Of a DNA stretch of 64,000 nt, positions 10,406 to 57,434 are shown in pieces (positions within the stretch are counted from its first letter, which is position 1; every line of letters starts with the position of its first letter). The translations under genes were made by a program, and so were the position numbers. This DNA comes from Fibrobacter sp. UWP2 (lineage in GTDB: Bacteria; Fibrobacterota; Fibrobacteria; Fibrobacterales; Fibrobacteraceae): positions 62,001 through 126,000 of the forward strand of contig NZ_FQYM01000003.1 in the NCBI RefSeq assembly GCF_900141705.1, read 5' to 3'. Under the pieces are notes generated by a model. That model did no database searches and was not told the origin of the DNA. It was given only the letters and a program-made list of their open reading frames with translations.

Positions 10406-10615
10406 TGACATAGCCCCGTACCGAATGGTTCGGAGCGACCGGAAATTTTGAGATTCGTCTCTTATTCTTGGCTCTAAAACTACCACTTTTAAGTCGTACG
10501 AGAATAAGACGAACGCTCACGTCCCAATCGGGGCGTGGGTTGTTTGTGCTTATTGTACGACAGGGTGTGGTAGCCCTTAGAGCCAGTAAGTGCTTGCAAC
10601 TCCACGCCTTTTTTT
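10406..10615 (+). ncRNA. Structured RNA element, copy 2
   Basis: Bases 10406-10468 are identical to copy 1. The long hairpin is rebuilt from different sequence: TGGCTCTAA (10469-10477) with TTAGAGCCA (10577-10585), and GTCGTAC (10493-10499) with GTACGAC (10555-10561), while the CTACCAC/GTGGTAG pair is unchanged. The apical stem CACGTCCC/GGGGCGTG is better paired than in copy 1. The terminator-type pairing is GGCGTGGGTTG (10532-10542) with CAAC-T-CCACGCC (10597-10608), then seven T residues (10609-10615). It sits 53 bases upstream of the restriction-modification gene, as copy 1 sits upstream of the DUF4417 operon. Confidence 0.85.
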
Positions 10616-10668
10616 ATTTGTGGAAATTGCGGCAAACAAGGAACGGCTCTCGCAACGTTGGAGCCGCC

Positions 10669-13600
10669 ATGGTCGATTTGGACAAGAGCAAGATTCAAGC
10701 CGTCGCACAGTACATCGACGAGGTCTCCAAGCAATTTTCTACGGGCAAGGCGACCGAACACAGTTACCGCCCTGCACTCGCGAAACTCCTTGGCGACTTG
10801 CTCCCCAAATTCACCATCACCAACGAACCGAGCCGAATCCAGTGCGGAGCGCCGGACTACATTATCGCGAAAGGGAAAGGCGCAACATCGATTCCGGTTG
10901 CGTTCGTAGAGGCAAAGGACATCGGCGATAGCGACCTGGATGGAAACCGCCAGCACAAGGAACAGTTCAACCGTTACAAGAACTCCCTAGACCATATCCT
11001 TTTCACAGATTACCTTGATTTCCATGCTTATGAAAACGGGATGCCAACTCAAAACATCCGCATTGCAGAAATCAAAGGGAACAAAATTGCGCTGATTGAT
11101 GCCAATGTCCCGATGTTTTTGGAAATGGTGGCGCACATTGCGGAATCAACACCGCAGAAGATTACAAGTTCTACAAAGCTGGCGCAGATGATGGCGGCCA
11201 AGGCGCGCCTCCTTGCCGAAGTGATAGAAAAAACTCTTGAAACCGATAGCGAGAAGACGGGCGAACTGGCGGGGCAATGGAAATCTTTTCAGAGAGTCTT
11301 GATTCACGATTTGACAGAACGTCAATTTGCAGACATTTATGCACAGACAATTTGCTATGGAATGTTTGCGGCAAGGCTCCATGACGACACTCCTGACACG
11401 TTCAGTCGAGAAGAAGCGGCGACACTCATTCCCAAGACAAATCCGTTCTTGCGCAAGGTTTTCCAGAATGTTGCCGCATTCGATGTAGATACAAGCATCG
11501 CATGGATTGTAGATGACCTGGCAGAAACATTCCGGGTGACGGACATGCCGAAGGTCATGAAGAATTTTGGAAAGGCTACGGGTCAAGCCGACCCCATGAT
11601 TCACTTCTACGAAGATTTTCTGCGCTATTACGACCCCAAGCAGAAAAAGGCCTGTGGTGTTTATTACACGCCAGAACCTGTTGTTTATTTTATCGTCAAT
11701 GCTGTCGATGAAATTCTGAAAACGCGCTTTGGTTTGAGCGATGGTCTCGCTGACACGAGTAAGGTGACGATTCGGCAGACTTCGAATCTGTATACGGACA
11801 ATCGCACCAAAGACCACAAGAAATACGAAACGCGAGAATACCATAAAGTTCAGATTCTCGACCCGGCAACCGGAACGGGAACATTCCTTGCCGAAGTGGT
11901 TCGCAAGATATATTCCGGTATGGAAAACCAAAAGGGCGCTTGGCAAAATTATGTGGAAGAACATCTGCTGCCGCGCCTGAACGGTTTTGAATTCATGATG
12001 GCTCCATACGCCGTTGCGCATTTGAAATTGGACATGGTGCTGGCGCAGACAGGCTACAAGGCAAGACAGGACAAACGACTTCGCATATTCCTTACCAATT
12101 CCCTTGAAGAATGTGACCACGACACGGGGACATTGTTTGCACAATGGCTTGCGCAAGAAGCGAACGAGGCAAACCTTGTCAAACGCGATACACCCGTAAT
12201 GGTAATGATTGGTAATCCGCCGTATAGCAATAGTAGTTCTAATAAAAGTAAATGGATTTTGGACCTTCTGAAAATATATAAACAAAATCTAAATGAGAAA
12301 AAAATAAATCTTGATGATGATTATATTAAATTCATTCGTTTAGGGCAACACTATGTAGAAAAGAATGGTGAAGGAATTCTTGCCTATATTTCAAACAACA
12401 GTTTCATTGATGGAATAACGCATCGGCAAATGAGACATTCATTGATGGATACTTTTGATGAAATCTACATTCTTGATTTACATGGAAGCCAAAAGAAGGG
12501 TGAAACTATTCAAAAAAATGACGAGAATGTCTTTGATATTACTTTAGGCGTAAGCATTAATATCTTTGTTAAGAGAAAACAGAGTGTCATCCTGAACGAT
12601 GCCCGCAAGGGCGAAGTCGAAGGATCTCTAGCCAGAGTATATCACTACGAGCTCTTCGGCAAACGCTATGAAAAATATGCATTTTTGACCAAAACATCGT
12701 TCAGCGATATTCCTTGGAAAGAACTTTCTCCACACACACCGCAATTTTTCTTTGTACCTAAAGATTTTTCTGTGCAGGAAGAATATAAAAAGGGGTTTAA
12801 ATTATCTGAATTAATAATTAACTATAATTCAGGTGTTCAAACAAAAAGAGATTATTTGAATATTTTTTATCAAAAAAAAGATGCTGATTCTTTGAAGAAT
12901 GATTTTGTTAATATGCCTATTCAAGAATTACAAAAAAAGTATCATGTGAAAGATGGAAGAGATTGGCAACTTGACTTGGCTAAAAATGATTTAATAAAAA
13001 ATAAAGTTCTAACGAATGAAATTGATTATAGACCATTTGACATTAGGTTTACAAATTACACTGGAAAAACAAAAGGGATAATGGGTTATCCAAGATATAA
13101 AACAAACTTTAATATTATTCAAAAAGAAAATATTTCTCTTGTTATATGTCGACAATTAAGTACGTTTGATTTTCAACATATTTTTGTGACGACGCATATT
13201 TCGGATTTAAATTCTATATCTTTGCAGTCAAAGGAACAGTCTTACGTTTTCCCGCTCTACCTTTACCCAACAGAAAGTGAAGAAAAGCTCGGCGAAACAC
13301 GCAAGCCCAATCTAGACGAAAAAATTTGGCACAAAATAGACAAGTGTGCAAAACTCAAAACAACTCCAGAGCAAGTCTTCGATTACATCTACGGCGTTCT
13401 CCACACTCCATCCTATCGTGAAAAATATAAGGAATTCCTTAAAATTGATTTTCCGCGAATTCCTTATCCCGAAAACAAGGAAGATTTTGAACGCATCGTT
13501 TCCATCGGCAACAAGCTCCGCAAATTGCACTTGATGGAAGAAATTCCTCCGCAGACAACCTCCTTCGACATCGAAGGCGACAATGCCGTAAGCGAAATTC

Positions 13601-13860
13601 GGTTTGAAAGGGAGATCCCCGACCAAGTCGGGGATGACAACTACGGCAAAGTTTTTATTAACAAGCAGCAATATTTCGGCAACGTCCCTGAACTAGCCTG
13701 GAACTTCTACATCGGTGGCTACCAACCCGCCCAGAAGTGGCTCAAGGACCGCAAGAACCGCACCCTTACCTTCGACGACATCTCGCATTACCGCAAAATC
13801 ATCGCCATCCTTATCGAAACTCACAAGTTGATGCAGAATCTTGATGAAATTGCGGGATAA
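10669..13860 (+). CDS. Single-chain restriction-modification enzyme (type IIG / type ISP-like)
   Basis: 1063 residues from ATG 10669, preceded by TTGGAG; the frame is open further upstream but that part overlaps RNA element copy 2. Order: an N-terminal nuclease domain with a PD-(D/E)XK pattern (GAPDYII about 60-66, then VEAK about 81-84); a helical linker; an N6-adenine methyltransferase with SAM motif LDPATGTGTF (about 396) and catalytic NPPY (516-519); a variable A+T-rich target-recognition region (about 525-870); and a C-terminal domain like the specificity domain of type ISP enzymes (about 870-1063, FGNVPELAWNFYIGGYQPAQ). No helicase motor is seen, unlike LlaBIII-type enzymes. It would methylate and cut its own site. 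Two short palindromic elements sit in frame (about residues 639-653 and 982-990). Confidence 0.85.
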   Translation: MVDLDKSKIQAVAQYIDEVSKQFSTGKATEHSYRPALAKLLGDLLPKFTITNEPSRIQCGAPDYIIAKGKGATSIPVAFVEAKDIGDSDLDGNRQHKEQFNRYKNSLDHILFTDYLDFHAYENGMPTQNIRIAEIKGNKIALIDANVPMFLEMVAHIAESTPQKITSSTKLAQMMAAKARLLAEVIEKTLETDSEKTGELAGQWKSFQRVLIHDLTERQFADIYAQTICYGMFAARLHDDTPDTFSREEAATLIPKTNPFLRKVFQNVAAFDVDTSIAWIVDDLAETFRVTDMPKVMKNFGKATGQADPMIHFYEDFLRYYDPKQKKACGVYYTPEPVVYFIVNAVDEILKTRFGLSDGLADTSKVTIRQTSNLYTDNRTKDHKKYETREYHKVQILDPATGTGTFLAEVVRKIYSGMENQKGAWQNYVEEHLLPRLNGFEFMMAPYAVAHLKLDMVLAQTGYKARQDKRLRIFLTNSLEECDHDTGTLFAQWLAQEANEANLVKRDTPVMVMIGNPPYSNSSSNKSKWILDLLKIYKQNLNEKKINLDDDYIKFIRLGQHYVEKNGEGILAYISNNSFIDGITHRQMRHSLMDTFDEIYILDLHGSQKKGETIQKNDENVFDITLGVSINIFVKRKQSVILNDARKGEVEGSLARVYHYELFGKRYEKYAFLTKTSFSDIPWKELSPHTPQFFFVPKDFSVQEEYKKGFKLSELIINYNSGVQTKRDYLNIFYQKKDADSLKNDFVNMPIQELQKKYHVKDGRDWQLDLAKNDLIKNKVLTNEIDYRPFDIRFTNYTGKTKGIMGYPRYKTNFNIIQKENISLVICRQLSTFDFQHIFVTTHISDLNSISLQSKEQSYVFPLYLYPTESEEKLGETRKPNLDEKIWHKIDKCAKLKTTPEQVFDYIYGVLHTPSYREKYKEFLKIDFPRIPYPENKEDFERIVSIGNKLRKLHLMEEIPPQTTSFDIEGDNAVSEIRFEREIPDQVGDDNYGKVFINKQQYFGNVPELAWNFYIGGYQPAQKWLKDRKNRTLTFDDISHYRKIIAILIETHKLMQNLDEIAG
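12585..12627. repeat. In-frame palindromic element inside the restriction-modification gene
   Basis: This stretch begins GTCATCCTGAACGA, has a GCCC-GCAA-GGGC hairpin in the middle, and ends TCGAAGGATCT. It resembles dispersed GTCATCCTGA...GGATC repeats of many bacteria. It is GC-rich inside an A+T-rich region and adds about 14 residues without breaking the frame. Confidence 0.5.
13612..13638. repeat. Second in-frame palindrome, sister of the element at 57404-57429
   Basis: ATCCCCGAC (13615-13623) and GTCGGGGAT (13627-13635) form a perfect 9-bp stem around CAA. The same arms occur at 57407-57427, where the palindrome has a T-run and acts like a terminator. Here it encodes residues such as EIPDQVGDD in frame. 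Confidence 0.7.
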
Positions 13861-57403: not shown

Positions 57404-57434
57404 GTCATCCCCGACCTGGTCGGGGATCTTTTTT
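57404..57434 (+). terminator. Palindromic repeat acting as terminator
   Basis: ATCCCCGAC (57407-57415) and GTCGGGGAT (57419-57427) form a 9-bp stem around CTG, followed by C and six T residues. The same arms are found in reverse orientation inside the restriction-modification gene (13615-13635). Confidence 0.8.

Follow-up and report, generated by a model that had tools for sequence, protein, structure and literature searches.

Palindromic elements within a restriction-modification gene

The window, i.e. the whole 64-kb stretch of DNA analysed here, belongs to a 3.23-Mb genome of 72 contigs, assigned to Fibrobacter by its Fib_succ_major domains and by named relatives, and encodes a single-chain restriction-modification enzyme whose gene carries two palindromic elements, a third copy being found elsewhere (Table 1). 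The open reading frame (10468-13860, 1130 aa) is unbroken, with the ATG at 10669 as its likely start. The product matched methyltransferase domains and, at residues 716-1055 (numbered from the codon after the ATG), the Type ISP specificity domain (Pfam, E 9.7e-78); its solved relatives are LlaGI, LlaBIII and 7lo5, which we take to be DrdV.

Table 1. Host gene and palindromic elements of the window
Feature	Position	Strand	Basis
Host gene, single-chain restriction-modification enzyme (methyltransferase + Type ISP C-terminal specificity domain)	10669..13860	+	Pfam PF18135, N6_Mtase, Eco57I
Element A (long type), insertion site 1; in-frame reading VILNDARKGEVEGS	12586..12627	+	Family pattern, homologue comparison
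Element B (short type), insertion site 2; host-strand in-frame reading (E)IPDQVGDD	13613..13638	-	Pattern counts; empty sites in relatives
Third copy, type B, outside annotated domain, followed by a T run	57404..57429	+	Pattern counts, fold

The initial annotation had recognised two palindromes lying in frame within an uninterrupted coding sequence, one of them sharing its 9-bp arms with an intergenic terminator then placed at 57407-57427. Both observations held: element A starts on a codon boundary (GTC ATC CTG), and the arms of element B, ATCCCCGAC/GTCGGGGAT, are identical in the third copy. Element B folded clearly better than shuffled sequences (z -3.8), with a z of -4.6 for the intergenic copy. 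Element A is a weaker palindrome, its DNA folding no better than shuffles (z -1.06), and it was recognised by family membership; by energy alone it is not a strong hairpin. No Rfam match was obtained anywhere in the whole 64 kb.

With the insert sites masked, dN/dS between the host gene and its relatives ranged from 0.10 to 0.22 in the 11 unsaturated comparisons out of 15 (dS exceeding 2.5 in 2 of the 11), indicating purifying selection and therefore an enzyme kept by selection despite its inserts. A poor AlphaFold model of the enzyme (mean pLDDT 54, pTM 0.34) places each insert in a stretch of low confidence that separates predicted strands, a weak hint of loops.

Dispersal of the elements through the genome

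Counting the palindromes genome-wide, with the same pattern read backwards as control, revealed 35 matches of GTCATCC..GGATCT (control 0), 80 of the half-site TCATCCTGAGCGNAG, two mismatches at most being allowed (control 3) and 14 of the short type, hereafter type B (control 0). Since the control itself gives 3, a few of the 2-mismatch TCATCCTGAGCGNAG matches are expected to be chance. From 117 raw rows, and after exclusion of 46 G rows (mostly overlapping A or B rows) and 15 partial H rows, 56 full elements were retained in the genome stretches read, 42 of type A and 14 of type B.

Counted by eye, 16 of these 56 lie inside Pfam-supported open reading frames: the restriction-modification gene (2), an HrpA-like helicase, an ABC transporter (2), a CoaBC-like flavoprotein, an RlmL-like methyltransferase, a TonB-receptor-like protein, the DNA ligase LigA, TilS (2), a LysE-type transporter, a glycosyltransferase (2), a Fib_succ_major protein and UvrB. 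This count leaves aside one element possibly upstream of the start codon of its gene (L087) and six in reading frames without a Pfam match (L107, L028, L085, L010, L125, L024). In the Pfam-supported genes the elements are read in five of the six possible frames, as judged by their first codons (VIL, CHP/CHS, DPS, RSF and EIL/EIP); the sixth contains a TGA in type A. A topoisomerase III gene also contains an in-frame half element, TCATCCTGAGCGGCGA (L092:1500-1515), at the edge of the part aligned to solved structures.

Beyond this genome, 200 element matches were counted in G035, a genome of the same genus (control 3), about five times as many as in G003 (38, control 2) or in the genome of the window. 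The 10 outgroup genomes searched contained 0-16 matches each, except G051 (40, control 1).

Filled and empty sites in related enzymes

We compared the enzyme with its relatives in two sets. The first, of 16 rows from the genus and the phylum, revealed contrasted states at site 1, with type A in 7 rows, type B in 2, a nested type B in 1, three A-like copies in 1 and an empty site in 5; where type B occupies site 1, it is read in another frame than type A. Site 2 holds a type B element or a remnant of it in 12 rows, is empty in 3 and carries a longer non-palindromic loop in 1 (L051). At a third site near 13360, which is empty in the window gene, 8 relatives have type A, type B or a different palindrome; on the enzyme tree of the 16 rows, the site states form a patchwork. 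Nested palindromes were seen in the enzymes of L044, L053 and L042, where one element apparently sits in the loop of another with the frame kept.

The wider set comprised 80 rows, 14 of the Fibrobacter group (the window included, and one labelled Treponema) and 66 others; one locus with a short open reading frame (L270) was dropped from the 80 fetched, and several loci lie on contigs of another locus set. The loop at site 1 measures 7-12 residues, without any element, in all 66 homologues from outside the Fibrobacter group, and within the group 9-13 residues where an element is absent (5 rows) and 21-30 where one is present (9 rows). Since the insertion lengthens the loop by about 10 residues, fewer than the 14 or so encoded by element A, residues of the loop must also have been lost or replaced at this site. 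At site 2, 42 of the 66 outside homologues have a loop of 12 residues and 23 a longer one, the loop being uncovered in 1 (L261); it spans 12 to 50 residues where covered and, given these 23 longer loops, is intrinsically variable. The element peptide is absent at site 2 from all 66. At the DNA level, filled (L199) and empty (L221 or L202) versions of site 2 differ by 33 nt, clean empty sites 33 nt shorter being found in L196, L202 and L221, and no target duplication was visible in the filled and empty DNA compared. The contig of L202 (JAILQA010000077.1), labelled Treponema, encodes a 76% identical enzyme with neither insert, and may be a misbinned Fibrobacter contig or result from a transfer.

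These alignments identify the element residues as true insertions, relatives without the element having shorter loops, and a search for relatives with the same residues but no repeat left this reading standing. That the residues would instead have belonged to the protein from the start, with palindromes due to chance or a codon-level coincidence, could draw on the unremarkable fold of element A, but it is already contradicted by genome counts far above the control and by filled and empty sites among close relatives, and we give it practically no credence.

The initial annotation had further suggested that the inserts could alter target specificity, and a stronger form of this proposal would place them under selection for tuning how the enzyme recognises its target. 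Site 2 indeed lies within the Pfam specificity domain and remains occupied in those 12 of 16 rows. By contrast, site 1 lies past the last conserved methyltransferase strand and ahead of that domain, and holds different elements, different frames or nothing; site 2, in a loop of variable length, is missing in rows closely related to filled ones; and the same elements are found in unrelated genes. The altered specificity is unsupported and, with frames and types differing among relatives in this way, a selected role in recognition appears very unlikely. The elements have many host genes besides that of the restriction enzyme, and none of our findings supports a role in specificity.

Insertions in other genes

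Alignments of LigA, TilS and the RlmL-like protein to their solved relatives display a gap facing the element, and in UvrB the element falls in the linker joining two segments aligned to solved relatives. For LigA and UvrB, the best 30 matching genus loci each were compared. A recognisable element was present in the LigA loop of 8 of the 30 loci, in three frames by codon offset. In UvrB, at least 7 of the 30 linkers, as read from the alignment, contained an element, and two further reading frames carried one elsewhere or with ambiguous placement. The insert peptide looks tolerated rather than selected, since the elements in the loops of the restriction enzyme, LigA and UvrB vary in identity and in frame from species to species.

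Anatomy of the elements

Type A consists of a 5-bp outer stem, a mismatched stretch and an inner stem of 4-5 bp. Alignments of eight 41-nt and nine 39-nt copies (17 of the 42 A copies, picked for equal length) showed that pairing is kept at 100%, although both sides had changed in 17 of 88 and 11 of 90 cells, respectively; neither value was reached in any of 500 shuffles, and slid controls were much lower. The search pattern itself partly determines the outer motif but leaves the inner stem free. Orthologous copies at site 1 vary on one side only (L046, L196, L221), and stem diversity therefore seems to be generated before or during insertion. Maintenance of the hairpin in place was considered but is not claimed here: stems covary between loci among these 17 of 42 copies, but the orthologous copies change one-sidedly.

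Type B carries at one end an unpaired TGTC tag (window copies read TGTCATCC.., and other listed copies GTCATCC..), followed by a stem of 8-9 bp that starts with AT and encloses a loop of 4-5 bases (ATCCCCGA-5-TCGGGGAT or ATCCCCGC-4-GCGGGGAT). Its tail reads CT(C); one search pattern required this CT and may have overlooked copies with another tail, and the pattern without it gave the same copies plus two.

Relation to known palindromic elements

The best-known carriers of translated palindromic elements are Rickettsia and Wolbachia, bacteria of intracellular life and reduced genome size. In-frame insertions of this kind in Rickettsia have been reviewed (available text of PMC10969869), and the likeness to them put forward in the initial annotation is well supported here by insertions, read in frame, across many functionally unrelated genes. 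According to the consulted parts of a comparative study (PMC3767692), the Rickettsia and Wolbachia elements likewise occur in frame in housekeeping genes, different element types occupy the equal place in orthologues (its Table 1), as in Fibrobacter, and the ATGAC end motif is common to the Fibrobacter elements, RPE-4, RPE-6, RPE-7 and the Wolbachia palindromic elements. The inserts differ in length, 68-192 bp in Rickettsia and mostly 26-43 bp in Fibrobacter (same parts of PMC3767692).

The short type resembles another group, the CGTC-tagged palindromes, described in the accessible text of a survey (PMC3733652) from five phyla, including dRS3 of Neisseria and RPE-4/RPE-6 of Rickettsia conorii. 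As far as this text goes, these share with type B the TGTC tag, the 8-9 bp stem starting with AT and the short loop, and with the Fibrobacter elements in general the presence of some intragenic copies, repair genes being among the hosts (often so in the survey), and the lack of an associated transposase; they differ from type B in their usual, unpaired CCA tail. Judged by description and shared motifs, type B fits the CGTC superfamily except for its tail. Type A does not have the single 8-9 bp stem and 4-5 base loop described there (PMC3733652, text available): it exceeds them in length, its outer stem being followed by a stretch that looks unpaired and by an inner stem specific to each copy, and is either a longer relative of the CGTC palindromes or a separate type.

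The gut bacterium Fibrobacter and its phylum were not found in the searched text of this survey (PMC3733652). Literature searches on Fibrobacter combined with palindromic repeats or repetitive insertions gave no paper on the topic among the matches listed, and the element sequences used as search text gave none on bacterial repeats, judged by title among the matches listed. The Fibrobacter elements are of a known kind, working like those of Rickettsia and Wolbachia, in a phylum for which our searches found no report; new are this phylum, the longer element type with its copy-specific inner stems, and the repeated re-invasion of the same loops.

Origin and implications of the insertions

The elements are demonstrably dispersed, inserted in frame and in several frames, and different from species to species in the same loops, and the host enzyme is demonstrably under purifying selection. 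Very probably, they form a family of hairpin DNA that inserts in both intergenic DNA and genes of Fibrobacter, of which the in-frame insertions in tolerant loops survive and are translated. Short hairpins, moved as DNA by an enzyme, would insert alike into both kinds of target; in genes, the survivors would be those that keep the frame within tolerant loops, presumably at the protein surface, where they would be read as extra, selectively near-neutral loops, a translation suggested by the reading frames. Several findings speak against this explanation, namely that no mover was found in the genome of the window, that site 1 gained fewer residues than element A encodes, that no target duplication is visible at site 2, and that L051 keeps its long non-palindromic loop at site 2, where the 23 longer outside homologues also lack the element peptide.

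Beyond this, recurrent in-frame invasion by hairpins might be a leading source of loop-length change in Fibrobacter proteins, even in essential ones, with independent re-invasion of the same loops of LigA and UvrB in many species; we advance this only tentatively. As part of the same proposal, the inner hairpin of type A differs from copy to copy, so the copying process would generate palindrome arms anew instead of reproducing existing ones. DNA elements, and not adaptation, may have given rise to hypervariable loops in Fibrobacter proteins, which deserves attention during annotation. The relatives with clean empty sites make insertion length, target choice and tolerance directly measurable.

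As for the enzyme that would move the elements, a REP-associated tyrosine transposase (RAYT), as held for GTAG-type repeats, could be considered, as 20 of the 61 genomes of the genus encode Y1 transposase domains. Most of these matches look like plain IS200, to judge from their strong scores, and PF01797 has no match in the genome of the window, given as 100% complete. Moreover, the Fibrobacter elements have no GTAG tag, and no transposase was found in association with CGTC palindromes according to the accessible text of their survey (PMC3733652), making mobilisation by a RAYT very unlikely. The GTAG repeats do resemble the Fibrobacter elements in being short dispersed palindromes, and some of the elements of G035 stand in adjacent pairs of opposite orientation.
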